Assembly: GCA_029247025.1 (NCBI GenBank)
Contig: JAQWLZ010000001.1
Coordinates: 1-61,882, forward strand
Source: Alphaproteobacteria bacterium
GTDB taxonomy: Bacteria > Pseudomonadota > Alphaproteobacteria > TMED109
Reading direction: 5' to 3'
Length of the DNA stretch: 61,882 nucleotides
A model generated the notes under the pieces. That model searched no databases. It was not told the DNA's origin and was given only the letters and a program-made list of their open reading frames with translations. The position numbers and the translations under genes are program-made. Shown piece after piece: positions 6,642 to 30,699 of the stretch; position 1 is the first letter of the stretch, and the number at the start of each line of letters is the position of its first letter.

Positions 6642-8204
6642 TTAATTTATAGTTTCTAAATTAAAAAATGATTTTAGCATCTTTTCCACTAAATGTCTTT
6701 GAACCTTGCCCGTAGTACTTCTTGGTATATCAGTTTCTTTAATAACTAATATTTCTACAGGCTGTTTATAACCTGCTAAATATTTCCTACATGATTTTTT
6801 TAAATCTTCTATAATAATTTTTTCTTTATCTTTTTGACTAATACTAATAATAGCGATAGGAGATTCTCCCCATTTTTTGCTTTTTATTCTTACTACTACA
6901 GCTTCAGTTATCAATTCATGCCTGAGCATTACTCTTTCTATCTCTGCAGGATAAATATTTTCACCACCGGATTTAATCAAGTATTTTTTTCTATCAACAA
7001 AGTCTAAAGTATCTTCCCTGGTTCTTTTCATCATATCTCCCATGTGGAACCATCCTCCTCTAAAGTCCTTTAAATTAGTCTCTTCTGCATCCCAATATCC
7101 GCTAAATAATGTTGGCCCTCTAACAGCACATTCACCGGGCTTCTCATACCCCACTTCTTTATTATTACGGACTAATTTTACTTCGCAAAAGCTACTTTGT
7201 ACTTTCGACAAAGAAAAATTATTTTTATTTTTTTCTATAATACCTTTTGACGCCGGAGGCATTCCAGTTTCAGTTGAGCCAAAAGAATTAAGATAAGGAG
7301 TATCTAGTAGTGAAGTAATTGTTTTGATTTGATTTTTAGGAATCAAATCAGCCATAGCACCCATTGCTTTAATACCCTTAACTTGAATTTTTTTTCCATC
7401 AATAAAATTGATAAATTCTTCTAACATTCCTGGCATTAATACTAACCATGATAATTTATATTTTTTAATTAAATTCATAAGTAACGTCGAATCAAATCCA
7501 TCTACAATTGCCACAGAACCTCCTATTAAAAGTGACCCAATAGAAAGATCCGTAGATGCCATATGAAACATTGGAGCCCAAGCAGGAAAAGTATCCTTTT
7601 TATCCACATTATATTCAAATACAAAATATAAAGCTCTATAAATGAATGCTCTATGAGAAATTTTTGCCCCTTTAGGATAACCAGTGGTTCCTGAAGTAAA
7701 TAAGATTACAAGAATATCTTCACCACCACCTAAACTTTTTCCTAAATATGGTTCTGAATTAGTAACTAATTTTTCAAAGCTTAAATTTAATGAAATAAGT
7801 TTCTTATTTTTTATAGAGCTTAATTTATTTTTACTTTTAAACCTTGGAGATAAGACAATTAATTTTGGTTTTACTAAATTTATACAATAATTTATTTCAT
7901 TGTCAGATAGCCTCCAATTAATTGCAACTAATACAGCGCCAACTTTAGCACATGCCATTTCTATTTCTACGAACTCCATTCTATTTTCAGAAATAATTGC
8001 TATTCTATTTTTTGGCCTAATCCCTTTATTGATAAAAATTTTTGATAATTTAAGAATTCTATTTAGTGTTTCATTATAATTATATTTTTTACCCTTAGCG
8101 TTTATCAATGCTAGTGCTTTAGGATTATTTTTTGCTTGTGTTTCGAATAGCTCAGCTACAGATAAACTGGCAGCTTTTGAAACTAAAATATTATCTTTTT
8201 TCAT
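6642..8204 (-). CDS. AMP-dependent acyl-CoA synthetase
   Basis: A 520-residue member of the ANL adenylate-forming family. It would activate a carboxylic acid to an acyl-adenylate and then the CoA thioester. The P-loop ILFTSGTTGYPKGAK lies near residues 166-180. Later motifs are the A5-type LNSFGSTETG, the A7/A8 GWFHMGDM and DRKKYLIKSGGENIYPAEIE, and the C-terminal catalytic lysine region RSTTGKVQR. The substrate cannot be read from the sequence; a medium-chain, long-chain or aromatic acid are all possible. It starts one base before the upstream rhodanese stop, so the two are co-transcribed. There is no membrane segment, so it acts in the cytoplasm. Confidence 0.9.
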   Translation of the reverse strand: MKKDNILVSKAASLSVAELFETQAKNNPKALALINAKGKKYNYNETLNRILKLSKIFINKGIRPKNRIAIISENRMEFVEIEMACAKVGAVLVAINWRLSDNEINYCINLVKPKLIVLSPRFKSKNKLSSIKNKKLISLNLSFEKLVTNSEPYLGKSLGGGEDILVILFTSGTTGYPKGAKISHRAFIYRALYFVFEYNVDKKDTFPAWAPMFHMASTDLSIGSLLIGGSVAIVDGFDSTLLMNLIKKYKLSWLVLMPGMLEEFINFIDGKKIQVKGIKAMGAMADLIPKNQIKTITSLLDTPYLNSFGSTETGMPPASKGIIEKNKNNFSLSKVQSSFCEVKLVRNNKEVGYEKPGECAVRGPTLFSGYWDAEETNLKDFRGGWFHMGDMMKRTREDTLDFVDRKKYLIKSGGENIYPAEIERVMLRHELITEAVVVRIKSKKWGESPIAIISISQKDKEKIIIEDLKKSCRKYLAGYKQPVEILVIKETDIPRSTTGKVQRHLVEKMLKSFFNLETIN

Positions 8205-24604: not shown

Positions 24605-24633
24605 TCTACAATTATTATACCAATCAGTATTAA
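24605..24633 (+). promoter_or_regulatory. Predicted promoter of the DNA glycosylase gene
   Basis: TCTACA (24605-24610), a 17-base spacer and TATTAA (24628-24633) form a sigma-70-like promoter ending 17 bases before the ATG. The palindrome ATACCAATCAGTAT occupies the spacer and part of the -10, a classical repressor position. Confidence 0.45.
24617..24630. promoter_or_regulatory. TetR-type operator upstream of the DNA glycosylase
   Basis: ATACCAATCAGTAT matches ATACTAATCAGTAT (25957-25970) at 13 of 14 positions and resembles two further sites near the tetR start. It lies between the predicted -35 and -10 of the glycosylase gene and close to the divergent MMPL exporter promoter. The neighbouring TetR-family protein is the obvious candidate to bind it. 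Confidence 0.6.
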
Positions 24634-24650
24634 ATAAGGACTTAAATTTT

Positions 24651-25277
24651 ATGATAAATAAAAAACCCATTTGGTGGAATGAAGCTAAATCATTTTTAAA
24701 AAATAATGATCCTATCATGAAAACAATTATAATTCATCATAATGATGGCAACATAGAATCACGGGGAGAACCTTTTAATGCACTTTGTAGAACTATTATT
24801 GGTCAACAAATTTCTGTAAAAGCAGCTGCAAGTATTTGGAATAAATTTGAAAATGGGCTTCAAGAAGTAAACCCAAAAACAATTATTAAATATGGAAATA
24901 CTAAACTACGAAAATTCGGGCTTTCTAATCGAAAAGTTGAATATATAGTTGGCGTATCAAATTTTATTATAAATAACCCAAAAGCTATAAATACTTGGAA
25001 AAAAATGGATGATGATAGCGTTATCAAAGAGCTATGTAAATTAAAGGGAATTGGTCCTTGGAGTGCTGAAATATTTTTAATGTTTGTATTTCTAAGACCA
25101 AATATACTGCCCTTAGGAGACCTAGGTCTTCGAAGAGCTGTAGGTAAAAGTTATTTAAATAAATTTGATCCTAGTTATGAAGAAGTTGAAGAAGTTGCAG
25201 AAAAATGGCAGCCATACAGATCTGCGGCAACATGGTATTTATGGAGATCAATCGATCCTATTGCAGTAGAATATTAG
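24651..25277 (+). CDS. DNA-3-methyladenine glycosylase II (AlkA-like)
   Basis: A 208-residue HhH-GPD DNA glycosylase that would remove alkylated bases such as 3-methyladenine in base-excision repair. The helix-hairpin-helix is LCKLKGIGPWSAEIFLMF near residues 128-145, and the catalytic aspartate is in LPLGDLGLRRA near residue 156. Further family marks are FNALCRTIIGQQISVKAA near 45 and the C-terminal RSAATWYLWRS. It lacks the extra N-terminal domain of E. coli AlkA, as many bacterial members do. It converges on tetR with a 4-base overlap of stops and has an operator-like site in its promoter. Confidence 0.92.
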   Translation: MINKKPIWWNEAKSFLKNNDPIMKTIIIHHNDGNIESRGEPFNALCRTIIGQQISVKAAASIWNKFENGLQEVNPKTIIKYGNTKLRKFGLSNRKVEYIVGVSNFIINNPKAINTWKKMDDDSVIKELCKLKGIGPWSAEIFLMFVFLRPNILPLGDLGLRRAVGKSYLNKFDPSYEEVEEVAEKWQPYRSAATWYLWRSIDPIAVEY

Positions 25278-25879
25278 TTCTTTTTCAAAGGCTCCATAAT
25301 TAAACTAACCATTCCATTTAAAATTTCCTTCGGAACTTTATTATTTGATAATGTCGCTATTAATTTTAGTTGATGATGAAGATAGTTAGTAAAAACATCA
25401 ATATCTACTTCAGAAGAAACTTCACCTAATTCTATAGCTTCTGTTAACTTATTTTTTAAATTGAATAAAATTTCTTTATCTTTTTCGTAGATTATTTTTC
25501 TACATTCAGGTGACATAGCTTTAGATGGAAACCAAGATTCTTTATTATATAAGCAAGGATATGAATTCTCATTATCAAAAAGATTATTAACTAGATAATT
25601 TAAAGCTGCCTGAATATTTTCTACAAATGTATTTTCACTAAAAAGGTATTCCGCTAAAATATTAACTCGTTTATCTAAATATAGTTTTAAAGCCGAAGCC
25701 TTCAAACCATTTTCCCCTCCATATTCTCTATAGACACTCGGTTTTGATTCTCCAATTTTGCGACAAATTTCATTTAAAGATACATTATCCATACCTTCTT
25801 TCCAATAAGTATACATAGCTATACTATCTGCATTATGCTTATCGAATGTTTTTGGCCTACCTTTTTTAGTTATTTTCAT
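25274..25879 (-). CDS. TetR-family transcriptional regulator
   Basis: A 201-residue repressor-type regulator. The N-terminal helix-turn-helix spans about 25-55, with WKEGMDNVSLNEICRKIG and SKPSVYREYGGENGLK. The C-terminal part is a divergent ligand-binding domain of helices. The basic GRPKTFDK start is typical of the family. The operator-like GTACCAATTGGTAT begins four bases upstream of the ATG, where a Shine-Dalgarno would be, suggesting tight self-control. Its divergent promoter overlaps that of the efflux block. The ligand is unknown. The glycosylase operator suggests it may answer to a toxic or alkylating compound. Confidence 0.9.
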   Translation of the reverse strand: MKITKKGRPKTFDKHNADSIAMYTYWKEGMDNVSLNEICRKIGESKPSVYREYGGENGLKASALKLYLDKRVNILAEYLFSENTFVENIQAALNYLVNNLFDNENSYPCLYNKESWFPSKAMSPECRKIIYEKDKEILFNLKNKLTEAIELGEVSSEVDIDVFTNYLHHQLKLIATLSNNKVPKEILNGMVSLIMEPLKKN

Positions 25880-25882
25880 TTT

Positions 25883-25896
25883 GTACCAATTGGTAT
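25883..25896. promoter_or_regulatory. TetR-type operator O1 at the tetR start
   Basis: GTACCAATTGGTAT contains the perfect 12-bp palindrome TACCAATTGGTA. It ends four bases upstream of the tetR ATG (25879) and resembles the other three sites, supporting autorepression. Confidence 0.6.
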
Positions 25897-25903
25897 TTAA
25901 TTA

Positions 25904-25941
25904 TTGACATATTTATACTAAATAGTATTTAAATAAAACAA
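25904..25941. promoter_or_regulatory. Overlapping divergent promoters for tetR and the efflux block
   Basis: Rightward, TTGACA (25904-25909) and TATTTA (25926-25931) are 16 bases apart. Leftward, TTGTTT (25941-25936) and TATAAA (25917-25912) are 18 bases apart. The palindrome ATACTAAATAGTAT at 25915-25928 lies inside both, so one bound repressor could shut both promoters. Confidence 0.5.
25915..25928. promoter_or_regulatory. TetR-type operator O2
   Basis: ATACTAAATAGTAT (ATACTA / TAGTAT arms) lies between the -35 and -10 of the rightward promoter and overlaps the leftward -10. Confidence 0.55.
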
Positions 25942-25956
25942 GAACAATTTATATTT

Positions 25957-25970
25957 ATACTAATCAGTAT
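25957..25970. promoter_or_regulatory. TetR-type operator O3
   Basis: ATACTAATCAGTAT, the site closest to the one before the DNA glycosylase (13 of 14 bases). It lies downstream of the rightward promoter and upstream of the leftward one, so it may act as a roadblock or auxiliary site. Confidence 0.55.
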
Positions 25971-25994
25971 ATAAATAAATTGTATAAATGCAAG

Positions 25995-26046
25995 TAGTTG
26001 GGATTCCTCCCGTGTAAATATATATCTATGTTTTACTCCCCAACTA
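25995..26046 (+). other. Structured leader: 8-bp dyad TAGTTGGG ... CCCAACTA
   Basis: The arms TAGTTGGG (25995-26002) and CCCAACTA (26039-26046) are perfectly complementary across a 36-base loop. A smaller hairpin GGGA-TTCC-TCCC starting at about 26000 competes for the same left arm. The element ends 26 bases before the ATG of the frameshifted small gene, with its Shine-Dalgarno GAGG in between. It could be a switchable RNA leader; I do not recognise a known riboswitch class. Confidence 0.4.
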
Positions 26047-26072
26047 TTTGCTTTACAAAATGAGGAAAAATA

Positions 26073-26304
26073 ATGAAAACTATATTTTTTATAATATTTA
26101 TCTTATCAACTATAATATCAAAAATTAATAATTAAGGTTAATAATAATTTAAATAATAATTTTATTCCAAATGAACTGAAAGAAAATATAATAAATCTTA
26201 GAGATGCAGGAATAGATGCATCAAAAAACTTAGCACTAAGCGAAAGTATAGGAGTAAATTGTGAAGACTTATTAACCGAAGCCCTTAACAAGTCTAGCAA
26301 TTAA
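26073..26304 (+). pseudogene. Small secreted protein gene broken by a frameshift
   Basis: An ATG at 26073 with a good Shine-Dalgarno (GAGG) opens a signal peptide (MKTIFFIIFILSTIIS) that hits a stop at 26135. The next frame, joined across the A-run at 26120-26124, stays open to 26304 with a protein-like composition (residues such as LRDAGIDASKNLALSESIG, one Cys). It has no start of its own. Removing one A fuses them into a 76-residue secreted protein. The cause could be a real mutation, phase variation at the A5 run, or a sequencing error. It lies first in the putative efflux operon behind the TetR operators. Function unknown. Confidence 0.6.
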
Positions 26305-26386
26305 CTATTCAATTAATAAGAAGCTATAATTTAAATTTAATTCATGTTAAACACTTTATTATTCAAAAATTATAATAAGGTTTACT

Positions 26387-27535
26387 ATGACAAAATTTAA
26401 AAATATTGTGAGCAAAACTTTTCATATAAGTTTTATTTTACTTACAATAATATTTTTTCTTAATAAGAATGCCTTTTCTCAAAGCGCAGCATCTGTGGAG
26501 ACTGATCTTGTAGTATTAGAATCTTTAAATCAAACTATACCAGTTATTGGTCGTATAGTTTCACTAAAAGAAGCTGATGTTCCTGCAGCAGTTATAGGTA
26601 AAATAGAAAAAGTATTAGTTGAAGTAGGTGATAAAGTTAAAGAAGGACAAATTTTAGCCTTAATTGATATAGAAAGATATAAATGGTTGGCTGAAATAGC
26701 TTCTGCAAATGTTGCCGCAACTAAAGCAGAAATAAAAAGTGCTAAAGCTGAAACTAATATAAATTTAATTGAGCTAAACAGAATGGAAAACCTAAAAGAA
26801 TCGTCAGCATTTAATGTTGCAAAATATGAAAGACTTCAAAGTTTACATATTTCATTAATTGCAAAAGAAGAAATTGTAGAAGCTAAATTAAAGTCTATTT
26901 TACAAGAGGAAAAACTTGCAAAGTTGAACCTAAAAAGGGCTACAGTAAAAGCCCCATTCGATGGAGTAATAGAATTAAAAATGATTGAATTAGGGGAAGC
27001 CGTTGGACTTGGGTTTACATTATTTAAACTTGTAAGCGACTCTTTGTTAGAGATTGAAGCTGATGTCCCATCTAATAGAGCTAGAATTTTAAAAATTAAT
27101 AATGATATAAAAATAGCTACAACAGATAATCTTTCTTTTAATTCTAAATTAAGAGCCTTAGGCGTTAGAGAGAATTCTAATTCTAGAACAATACCTGTTC
27201 ACTTAAAGTTTAATAATAGTGAAATTTCTAGAAACTTATTTGTAGGAGAAAATGTCAACATATTTGTTCCGATTGGACCTGGACTTAAAGCCCCTACTAT
27301 TCATAAAGATGCCATTCTAAAGCGAGAAGGAATGTCTCTTGTCTATGTAGTTGAAGACGAAAAAGCAATTATTAAACCATTAAAACTTGGAGATGGAGTT
27401 GGTAATAGATTTATTGTTTTAGGAGGAGTCAAAGAAGGTGACATAGTCGTTGTTAAAGGTAATGAAAGATTAAGGCCAGGACAAAGTGTAAAGACTATTC
27501 CGACTAAAAACTCAGATGAAGGTGAGAAAAAATAA
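26387..27535 (+). CDS. RND efflux periplasmic adaptor (HlyD/AcrA family)
   Basis: A 382-residue membrane-fusion protein that links an RND pump to an outer-membrane channel. It has a signal peptide (about 1-31, ending AFS) and a split lipoyl domain, with VIGKIEKVLVEVGDKVKEGQILALID near 66-91 in the first half. A helical hairpin occupies about 95-170, then a beta-barrel and a membrane-proximal domain. No lipobox cysteine is seen, so it is probably anchored by protein contacts. Its stop shares one base with the pump start (TAATG). No outer-membrane TolC-like gene is nearby, so the channel must be encoded elsewhere. Confidence 0.92.
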   Translation: MTKFKNIVSKTFHISFILLTIIFFLNKNAFSQSAASVETDLVVLESLNQTIPVIGRIVSLKEADVPAAVIGKIEKVLVEVGDKVKEGQILALIDIERYKWLAEIASANVAATKAEIKSAKAETNINLIELNRMENLKESSAFNVAKYERLQSLHISLIAKEEIVEAKLKSILQEEKLAKLNLKRATVKAPFDGVIELKMIELGEAVGLGFTLFKLVSDSLLEIEADVPSNRARILKINNDIKIATTDNLSFNSKLRALGVRENSNSRTIPVHLKFNNSEISRNLFVGENVNIFVPIGPGLKAPTIHKDAILKREGMSLVYVVEDEKAIIKPLKLGDGVGNRFIVLGGVKEGDIVVVKGNERLRPGQSVKTIPTKNSDEGEKK

Positions 27536-30500
27536 TGGATATTATTAAAGCATCAATAGAAAGACCTACTGCTGTAGTCGCAGCCATTTTTATGACAATA
27601 GTATTAGGTTTTATAGCTTTAGACAGAATACCAATACAATTAGCACCAGATGTAAATAAGCCAGTGATAACTGTTAGTACTAATTGGTATGGAGCATCTC
27701 CATACGAAATTGAGAGAGAAATAGTAAATAGGCAGGAAGAAGTATTAAAAGGTATAGAAGGATCAAAGAGATTATCTGCAAAAGCTCAAGAAGGTCGTTC
27801 AGAAGTAACTATTGAATTTGATACTAATATAAATATGGATAGAGCATTATTATTAGTTTCTAATCGATTAAATCAAATTGAAGGTTATCCAGATGATGCT
27901 GGTGAACCAAGTCTCGATACTGCTGGCTTAGATGATAATGCAATTGCATGGTTTATTTTAACTAAAACTGAAGGAAATGAGACAGATATAGCTGCCTATG
28001 GAGATATCGTAGAAAATGTAATCCAAGATAAAATAGAAAGAGTTCCAGGAGTTGCCAGAACAACTGTCTATGGTGGAAGCGAAACAGAATTAAGAGTTAC
28101 AATAGACCCAGAAAAAATGGCTAATTATGGGCTTACAGTTGCTCAAGTTGCTTTAGCTCTCCAAAGAGCAAATGCATCCATTTCGGCTGGAGATGTAGAA
28201 GAAGGAAAGAGAAGATACATTGTTAGAGCCGAAGGAGAATTTCAGACGCCAGATCAAGTTAAAGCTGTAGTATTGATAAGCGATAAAAATGAAAATGGGC
28301 GCCTAGGTAGAGTGACTATAAACGATATAGCAGAAGTAGAATTTACTCATAAAGAACCTACCTCAAATATTAGATTTTTAGGAGATTCATCATTAGCTAT
28401 TAATGCCGTTCGCCAATCTGGGGCTAATGTTATTGAGATCATGGTAGGAGTTAGAAATGCTGTTAAAGAACTTAATGAAGATTCCTTACCTAACTTAGGG
28501 CTTAAATTAGAACAAGTTTATGATGAAACCATATATATTGATTCTGCAATAGAACTAGTTAGACAAAATATATGGATAGGCGGAACTCTAGCAATATTAA
28601 TTTTAATATTATTCTTAAGGTCATGGAGAGCTACAGTCATTATTGGACTATCTATCCCTATATCGGTTGTAGCCGCTTTTGTTGCAATGGCTGCTCTAGG
28701 AAGGTCTATAAATGTTATTTCTTTAGCTGGTATAGCTTTTGCGGTAGGTATGGTAGTTGATGCGGCTATTGTTGTTTTAGAAAATATCTATAGACATAGA
28801 GAGAATGGAAAAGAAGCAAATGAAGCAGCGTATTTTGGTGCTAAACAAGTTTGGTCAGCTGTCATGGTATCTGCATTAACAACTGTTTTAGTTTTTGTTC
28901 CAATTTTAATAATGCAATTAGAGGCAGGACAATTATTTAGAGATATAGCAGTTGCTATTTCTGTTGCTGTTACTATGAGCCTCTTAGTTTCTGTTACTGT
29001 TTTACCTGCACTAGCTAAATGGCTTTTAACAGGAGTAAAAGCTACTAAAAAAAATATCTTTATCATAGATAATATAGCTAGAGGCTTTGTTAATTTTACA
29101 ATAGGTTATGTAAAATTAATTACTAAATCTAGAATGGCATCATTACTAGTAGCTGCAACTGTCGCTTTAGGGGCATTATCTATTTCCTATTCTATGCTTC
29201 CTAAACTGGAATATCTCCCTGAGGGAAATAGAAATTTGATCTTTGGTATTATGCTTCCTCCTCCAGGATATAATTTAGAAACCTTAACAGAAATTGCCGA
29301 AAGAGTAGAAATTAGAGTAAAAAATTTATGGGCTTCAGAAACCGGTCCAGAAGCTGAAGAAGGACAACCTCCTAAAATTAGAAACTACTTTTTTGTTGCA
29401 GGTGCTGGAGGAAGAACTCTTTTTGGTGCAAGTGCAATTCAAGACACAAGAGTAAGAGAATTAATTCCAGTGTTGACGCGCTCTCTATTTGGAGAACCAG
29501 GAACCTTTGGTTTTTTTACACAACCCAGTTTATTTCAAAGAGGTTTTGGGGGAGGAAGATCAATAGATTTAGATATTACAGGGCCTGACTTAGAAAAAGT
29601 AGTAATAGTTGCTCAACAAGCAGCAGGTTTGGTAGGAAAGTCTTTTCCTAGAAATGAAGGCAATCAAATGCGTCCTATACCTGGCTTAGTATTAGGAGCT
29701 CCTGAAATACAAGTTAAACCAAATAGAGTTAAATTAGCTGACAATAATATTACAGCACAATCTCTAGCATTAAGTGTTGATGCATTTAATTCAGGTTTAA
29801 GGATTGCTGAAATAACAGTAGACTCCAAAAGAATGGATTTAACACTAAGAGGGAAAGAGAACGCTATTAAAGAAACACAAGGGATTGAAAATATTCCAGT
29901 TGTTACGCCAAGTGGAAAAATACTACCTATATCTTCTATAGCTGACGTAGTTATGACGTCTGGCCCGACGGAAATAAGACATATTGAAAGAGATAGAACT
30001 ATTACCTTACAAATAAAGCCAATAGATAAAATTCCTTTAGAAGCTGCTATTGATACTATAAAAGAAAAAGTAATTTTACCTCTTGAACAACAAGGATTAC
30101 CTACTGGTATTAACTTAAACCTTTCTGGAACAGCTGACGAATTAACAAGCACATGGAATGCAATGGTAATGAATTTAATAGTGGCTATATGTATGGTCTA
30201 TTTATTAATGGCAATATTATTTGAAAGTTTTATTTATCCTTTAGTTATAATGTTATCCGTTCCACCAGCTGCAGCGGGAGGAGTAATGGGATTATGGGTT
30301 CTAAATTTAAATATATTACAACCATTAGATATGCTAACAATGCTAGGTTTTGTAATTTTAATTGGAATTGTCGTAAATAACGCTATTTTATTGGTACACC
30401 AAACCCTACAACATATGAAAGAAGAAAACTTAAATGCTTCTGAAGCAATATTAGAGGCAACGAGAAATCGAATAAGGCCAATTTTCATGTCCACACTAAC

Positions 30501-30699
30501 AAGTGTTTTTGGCATGATACCTCTTGTAGTTTTTCCCGGGGCAGGGTCTGAGCTGTATAGAGGTTTAGGATCAGTAGTAATAGGTGGTTTATGCCTATCA
30601 GCTATTTTAACTTTAGCTATAGTTCCTCCAATGCTAAGAATTTTTATTAGAGAAAATATAGTTAAATCACAAAGAATAAACCATGCTATTGCAGAATAA
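27535..30699 (+). CDS. RND efflux pump inner-membrane subunit (AcrB family)
   Basis: A 1054-residue proton-driven multidrug-type exporter with twelve expected helices and two large periplasmic loops. The first helix is at about 10-30. The second half starts near 520. The proton-relay helix reads AVGMVVDAAIVVLENIYRH near 405-420, with a single Asp where AcrB has two. The second half has GFVILIGIVVNNAILLVHQ. The early segment DRIPIQLAPDVNKPVI and SLAGIAFAVGM are family-typical. The specificity cannot be read. It is co-transcribed with the adaptor and probably apbE, behind TetR-type operators. Confidence 0.93.
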   Translation: MDIIKASIERPTAVVAAIFMTIVLGFIALDRIPIQLAPDVNKPVITVSTNWYGASPYEIEREIVNRQEEVLKGIEGSKRLSAKAQEGRSEVTIEFDTNINMDRALLLVSNRLNQIEGYPDDAGEPSLDTAGLDDNAIAWFILTKTEGNETDIAAYGDIVENVIQDKIERVPGVARTTVYGGSETELRVTIDPEKMANYGLTVAQVALALQRANASISAGDVEEGKRRYIVRAEGEFQTPDQVKAVVLISDKNENGRLGRVTINDIAEVEFTHKEPTSNIRFLGDSSLAINAVRQSGANVIEIMVGVRNAVKELNEDSLPNLGLKLEQVYDETIYIDSAIELVRQNIWIGGTLAILILILFLRSWRATVIIGLSIPISVVAAFVAMAALGRSINVISLAGIAFAVGMVVDAAIVVLENIYRHRENGKEANEAAYFGAKQVWSAVMVSALTTVLVFVPILIMQLEAGQLFRDIAVAISVAVTMSLLVSVTVLPALAKWLLTGVKATKKNIFIIDNIARGFVNFTIGYVKLITKSRMASLLVAATVALGALSISYSMLPKLEYLPEGNRNLIFGIMLPPPGYNLETLTEIAERVEIRVKNLWASETGPEAEEGQPPKIRNYFFVAGAGGRTLFGASAIQDTRVRELIPVLTRSLFGEPGTFGFFTQPSLFQRGFGGGRSIDLDITGPDLEKVVIVAQQAAGLVGKSFPRNEGNQMRPIPGLVLGAPEIQVKPNRVKLADNNITAQSLALSVDAFNSGLRIAEITVDSKRMDLTLRGKENAIKETQGIENIPVVTPSGKILPISSIADVVMTSGPTEIRHIERDRTITLQIKPIDKIPLEAAIDTIKEKVILPLEQQGLPTGINLNLSGTADELTSTWNAMVMNLIVAICMVYLLMAILFESFIYPLVIMLSVPPAAAGGVMGLWVLNLNILQPLDMLTMLGFVILIGIVVNNAILLVHQTLQHMKEENLNASEAILEATRNRIRPIFMSTLTSVFGMIPLVVFPGAGSELYRGLGSVVIGGLCLSAILTLAIVPPMLRIFIRENIVKSQRINHAIAE

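Follow-up and report, generated by a model that had tools for sequence, protein, structure and literature searches.

The locus described here raises the question of how far the reach of a single TetR-family repressor extends when its gene lies between the gene for an AlkA-type DNA glycosylase and those for an RND efflux pump. Control of efflux by TetR repressors is known; a glycosylase as a second target is unusual. In this study, we analyzed the locus within its window (the whole stretch of 61,882 nucleotides under analysis), whose source belongs to an order-level group of uncultured marine Alphaproteobacteria. The source genome (G000; 1,496,753 bases in 73 contigs, 74.6% complete) was scanned by pattern, and an order-wide and a family-wide genome search returned an identical set of 28 genomes. 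Orthologs of tetR were found in four relatives, TMED109 (G009), MarineAlpha9_Bin3 (G011), SFB_27D_100_8 (G014) and SZUA-1021 (G012), and the five tetR-bearing species were compared; G009 is the nearest relative of G000 (RND permease identity 99%) and G012 the most distant of those compared. Our preferred answer, which we hold to be somewhat better than an even bet, is that the tetR module regulates itself and that in G000 the repressor would also act on the glycosylase gene and probably on the divergent transcript running toward hlyD.

The identities of the encoded proteins set the frame for that answer (Table 1). Judged by its sequence, the glycosylase is related to AlkA but short, comes nearest to the 2yg8 type and is not E. 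coli AlkA. Its closest solved structures are the 3-methyladenine glycosylases II 2yg8/2yg9 (6e-26), followed by 2h56; its segment LPLGDLGLRR, which holds the catalytic aspartate, aligns with the GDL of 2yg8; and it scores 26.6 bits against the cut-off of 229 for the E. coli AlkA equivalog PRK10308. Its predicted function is the excision of alkylated bases. The AcrB-type permease and periplasmic adaptor of an RND (HAE) pump are both present. The regulator has a TetR_N match of 21 bits, slightly below the Pfam cut-off of 24, and its TetR fold assignment is carried by an AlphaFold model (pLDDT 82.8) with Foldseek matches to TetR regulators at E values down to 5e-8, the top solved-structure match being CifR (profile 1e-9; fold TM 0.77).

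Table 1. Positions of genes, predicted operators and other elements at the glycosylase-tetR-RND locus, numbered from the first nucleotide of the window.
Feature	Position	Strand	Remarks
Predicted TetR operator ATACCAATCAGTAT, glycosylase promoter region	24617..24630	.	Matrix rank 1 in window
AlkA-type HhH-GPD DNA glycosylase, 208 aa	24651..25277	+	Pfam HhH-GPD 64.1 bits, cut-off 26.2
TetR-family repressor, 201 aa, CifR/NemR-like	25274..25879	-	Convergent with glycosylase gene; orthologs in 4 relatives
Predicted tetR-proximal operator GTACCAATTGGTAT, ribosome-binding region	25883..25896	.	-17 from tetR ATG
Predicted middle operator ATACTAAATAGTAT	25915..25928	.	Peculiar to G000/G009 lineage arrangement
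Predicted distal operator ATACTAATCAGTAT	25957..25970	.	Identical in 5/5 tetR-bearing species
Predicted RNA hairpin, 13-bp stem	25985..26062	+	Between operators and hlyD; folding z-score -5.7
Conserved hlyD promoter-like element (CTATAATTTAAAT..)	26325..26345	+	Six g1 genomes, G010 (no tetR) and G014 (inverted) among them
RND periplasmic adaptor (HlyD/MFP)	26387..27535	+	RND_mfp 172 bits, cut-off 94.9
RND permease, AcrB-type HAE	27535..30699	+	ACR_tran 667 bits
Fifth exact motif match, within RND permease gene	27677..27690	.	Encodes STNWY; G000 and G009 only

A first-pass annotation of this DNA had listed four 14-bp palindromes around tetR, whose coordinates and letters were both verified and which fit RTACYAAWYRGTAT exactly. 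In G000, three of them start at -17, -49 and -91 relative to the tetR ATG, and the 3' end of the fourth, at 24617, is 20 bp upstream of the glycosylase ATG. When a scoring matrix was trained on the tetR-upstream sites of the four other species, with no G000 site included, the four palindromes ranked 1–4 across the 61.9 kb window with scores of 20.0, 19.3, 15.8 and 15.2, the 24617 site being top. The annotation had confined the palindromes to the surroundings of this regulator, which is right in that all five exact matches to RTACYAAWYRGTAT in the genome (24617, 25883, 25915, 25957 and 27677, all inside the window) lie less than 3 kb from tetR, but it had overlooked the last of these. The 27677 match, fifth in the window by the same out-of-sample matrix, was rejected as a fifth operator and is probably a coding coincidence, because it codes for conserved residues and occurs only in G000 and G009.

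The 24617 palindrome might itself be a product of chance or a promoter feature, with a -10-like left half (TTATACC) and a right half that matches by accident. Such an origin would agree with the left half, TATACY, which four species preserve, also when the right half is gone. However, none of 5000 dinucleotide-shuffled glycosylase upstream regions attained the score of this site, which is identical in 13 of 14 bases to the invariant distal operator, and exact matches to the generic motif RTACYRATYRGTAY have a background of about ≤1 per genome (0–3 control matches per genome). Shuffled windows likewise contained a mean of 0.017 matrix hits. We therefore regard an accidental origin as very improbable and treat the palindrome as a predicted operator.

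Evidence that the palindromes belong to this TetR came from its relatives. In the tetR-bearing genomes exact RTACYRATYRGTAY matches are almost confined to the tetR locus, as emerged from the motif search of the genome and its relatives that the first-pass annotation had advocated, while the exact matches in G010, G013 and G001, which are without a tetR ortholog, are near unrelated genes or intragenic and at chance level. Genome-wide 1-mismatch counts, taken to look for a regulon beyond the locus, equaled those of a reversed-pattern control, and therefore no additional targets can be claimed. Among 25 TetR homologs, a motif with ≤1 mismatch to RTACYRNNYRGTAY was found within 120 bp upstream for nine of the ten with an SKPxxYR recognition helix versus none of the 15 with other helices (Fisher p 5e-6, a value uncorrected for relatedness that overstates independence because five of the nine motif-bearing TetRs are orthologs). 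The remaining four come from three further genomes, one from another family, and the distant TetR G222b, of another family, has the motif at -61 and -17, a geometry as in the tetR orthologs. Identity between the orthologous TetRs drops to 51%, and their recognition helix, SKPSVYREYGG, is unaltered.

Upstream of tetR, the number of operators is two or three in each of the five species. The distal one does not vary between the five orthologous loci and is embedded in a 26-bp conserved block. The proximal operator is variable, with the -17 site present in four of five orthologs by the 1-mismatch rule and degenerate in G011, and G000 and G009 have an additional ~32-bp duplicated unit. With the distal site unchanged throughout and the motif following the SKPxxYR helix type, the palindromes are very probably the operators of this TetR, a prediction from sequence in line with the first-pass reading, and TetR very probably regulates its own gene. 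The placement of the 25883 palindrome over the ribosome-binding region of tetR likewise agrees with that reading. A literature search turned up no relevant published operator with this sequence.

Similar palindromes and regulators were also observed at other loci. Related TetRs of the genus g7 have the same palindrome upstream (L079 4663-4676; L020); in L079, it separates tetR from a divergent gene whose small protein product looks exported. In an RND pump neighborhood of G018 (L075 3563-3576), an exact palindrome, ATACTGATCAGTAT, immediately precedes an ApbE-like gene, and no TetR gene was seen near it. A CifR-like TetR with an SKPTLYR helix lies immediately ahead of an MMPL gene resembling that of the window in a different family (L125, G238); the palindrome is absent there. 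Two tandem TetR paralogs with SRPGIYK or ARAGIYK helices occur in the source genome (L062, G000:C36 10987-12300) and also in G011 and G014, and no such palindrome was found upstream.

The operator at the glycosylase gene has a more uneven distribution. It is intact in two of the five tetR-bearing species, G000 (ATACCAATCAGTAT) and G011 (ATACCAAGTAGTAT). The first-pass annotation had made its proposal depend on conservation of this site upstream of orthologs, and such conservation was not found: the site is broken in G009 by a 1-bp deletion and substitutions, degraded in G014, and absent upstream of the glycosylase gene in G012. Accordingly, the idea that the repressor controls alkylation repair holds up in that the 24617 site is the best-scoring match in G000, but not as a general property of the group. 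Although the conservation test failed, the operator in G000 is, by its sequence, as good as the autoregulatory sites, and since the promoter region of the glycosylase gene contains a near-identical operator, repression of that gene is probable in this genome. As the intact G011 site is at the corresponding position, the operator was probably already present in the common ancestor of G000 and G011; the simplest history would already give it to the ancestor of all members of the group except G012, with several losses thereafter. Possibly, the 24617 site lies between the -35 and -10 of the glycosylase promoter (TCTACA-17-TATTAA), as had been suggested.

The 24617 site is in the intergenic region between the glycosylase gene and a divergent MMPL/LolA/OM-protein operon, which could be the true target instead. 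About 110 bp separate the site from the start of MMPL, the tetR operators are directly upstream of MMPL in G014, and the distant TetR in G238 adjoins an MMPL gene. However, a conserved TGTCTA near 24617 reads on the opposite strand as TAGACA, a good -35 for the MMPL gene, and because this predicted -35 is between 24617 and MMPL, the site would be upstream of the MMPL promoter, whereas the glycosylase ATG is only ~20 bp away. We consider this operon an improbable target and keep the glycosylase gene as the likelier object of repression at 24617.

On the pump side, the operators are at a greater remove. Operators adjacent to hlyD are present in four of the five tetR-bearing species, and the distance from the last operator to hlyD is 417–444 bp in G000 and G009 (417 here) versus 135–187 bp in G011 and G012. 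The promoter-like element CTATAATTTAAAT, ~65 bp upstream of hlyD in six g1 species, is separate from the operators. An operator had been said to overlap the promoter of the pump; this was not upheld, as no operator overlaps the conserved hlyD element and G014 is without an hlyD-side operator. Pump control through repression of a longer transcript is plausible, though not established, from this arrangement. The predicted hairpin in the intervening region is confined to this locus, where it occurs in four of five tetR-bearing genomes with two compensatory pairs (both sides changed), and an Rfam search with it returned no credible family; it may serve the cassette as a leader RNA or an attenuator. 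The gap between the operators and hlyD also contains a gene for a small secreted-looking protein of ~85 aa (window 26073-26300, +; L055 about 7750-8011, -), which is open in G009, broken in G000, a remnant in G014, and absent from G011 and G012.

These features bear on a narrower account, in which TetR is essentially autoregulatory, perhaps together with the divergent transcript, while the glycosylase site is transient, lineage-specific and of little effect, and the glycosylase and pump genes use their own promoters. The tetR operators alone persist in every one of the five species, the glycosylase site having been lost in three, and the inverted cassette of G014 still retains its operators. 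In addition, a conserved promoter-like element belongs to hlyD itself, and TetR regulators encoded >200 bp from a divergent neighbor frequently do not regulate that neighbor (PMC3511530). Less easily accommodated are the top score in G000 of a site at the glycosylase promoter, its intact counterpart at the corresponding position in G011, and the merely 135–187 bp between operator and hlyD in G011 and G012. We judge the narrower account to be a serious possibility, albeit a rather doubtful one, and continue with the reading in which the glycosylase of G000 is repressed as well.

The history of the locus places the regulator in an older setting. The tetR gene sits directly after the glycosylase stop codon, with a 4-bp overlap between the two genes, and before hlyD. 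In tetR-less G010, G001, G008 and the large-genome genus g8, by comparison, the genes for glycosylase, HlyD and the RND permease lie side by side in one direction, and the same co-directional adjacency is also found in G151 and G254 of another alphaproteobacterial family (f125), with a glycosylase identity of 37%. At L104, L105 and L043-L051, in other genera and in another family, an AlkA-type glycosylase gene was observed immediately upstream of an adaptor-permease pair with no intervening TetR gene. Because the adjacency occurs in species without tetR, the association of repair and efflux is older than tetR. In a tree of neighboring proteins, tetR-less G010 is nested among the tetR-bearing genomes, and therefore tetR was probably lost in G010; the change of its glycosylase site to the relic ATACCAAGTAGCAN is what disappearance of the regulator would lead one to expect. 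In G014, glycosylase and tetR together lie in inverted orientation between conserved flanks (L054 8928-10156), so that the operators face MMPL. One breakpoint of that inversion is apparently right beside the glycosylase operator.

In the mechanism we propose, a CifR/NemR-like TetR module would have been recently acquired, within one genus, by insertion between the halves of the older glycosylase-RND unit. A TetR dimer would bind the 14-bp palindromes RTACYRATYRGTAY, and the operators at -17 and about -60, with the extra copy in G000, would silence the tetR promoter and probably also the divergent transcript toward hlyD. Through the 24617 operator, which differs from the invariant distal operator by a single base, TetR would probably repress the glycosylase gene too. 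Release of TetR, by a ligand or by reaction of the conserved Cys109 with a thiol-reactive electrophile, would then cause efflux and base repair to rise together. Of this scheme, sequence comparison bears out the sites, their tie to this class of TetR, the geometry for autoregulation, the insertion history and the older gene coupling. By analogy with related regulators TetR may sense electrophiles, and the Cys109 position is Cys in 19 of 19 aligned homologs; it is nevertheless unspecific to this regulon, because paralogs with other helices also carry it. The full scenario, in which Cys109 senses alkylating or electrophilic compounds for joint derepression of the AlkA-type glycosylase and the RND pump, an Ada-independent expel-and-repair response from a regulator inserted in the older unit with both halves re-linked by flanking operators, is unlikely in our estimation.

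If the preferred reading is true, a repair glycosylase and a pump are under one small-molecule-responsive TetR repressor. With an intact operator in just two of five related species, the glycosylase switch is better described as a plausible variation on known regulation than as a conserved system. In either case, the locus is a clear case of a regulator that enters an existing gene unit, gains and loses operators, and becomes inverted, all within one genus, and the glycosylase-RND adjacency kept in two alphaproteobacterial families is a hint that the pump substrate damages DNA. The pairing of glycosylases with export is a feature of genotoxin self-resistance.

The literature searched, the coverage of which was incomplete, held no comparable AlkA-TetR-RND arrangement or AlkA-TetR-efflux link, and the comparison with known systems is one of partial likenesses. 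YtkR2 and AlkZ are presented in PMC8626424 and PMC9040887 as DNA glycosylases for self-protection from a DNA-damaging compound. They differ in being AlkD-type and HTH_42 enzymes inside biosynthetic clusters, whereas the enzyme here is AlkA-type, with no biosynthetic genes among the neighbors examined. RND repressors of the MtrR/AcrR/TtgR type share the divergent orientation of tetR relative to the adaptor-permease pair (the MtrR family match is weak), but here the distance to the pump is longer, a separate conserved hlyD element is present, and a second operator is predicted at a repair gene. NemR of E. coli is a TetR-family regulator with a cysteine-mediated response to alkylating and thiol-reactive agents (PMC9342713); its structure (PDB 4yze) resembles the window TetR in fold (TM 0.79/0.82), although identity is 13% and its targets, nemA and gloA, belong to neither base excision repair nor RND efflux. 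The closest resemblance is to CifR of Pseudomonas aeruginosa, an epoxide-responsive TetR-family regulator (PDB 6nsn, 6nsm, 6nsr) with two binding sites according to the title of the CifR paper cited in PMC8244358. Identity to CifR is only 21–22%, cysteines are lacking at the positions aligned to CifR Cys99 and Cys181, and the neighbors here are an RND pump and a DNA glycosylase with no epoxide hydrolase, oxidoreductase or MFS operon. Nevertheless, CifR is the best match to the window TetR in both profile and fold, its Cys107 aligns with Cys109, and both regulators would exert control from a divergent intergenic region.
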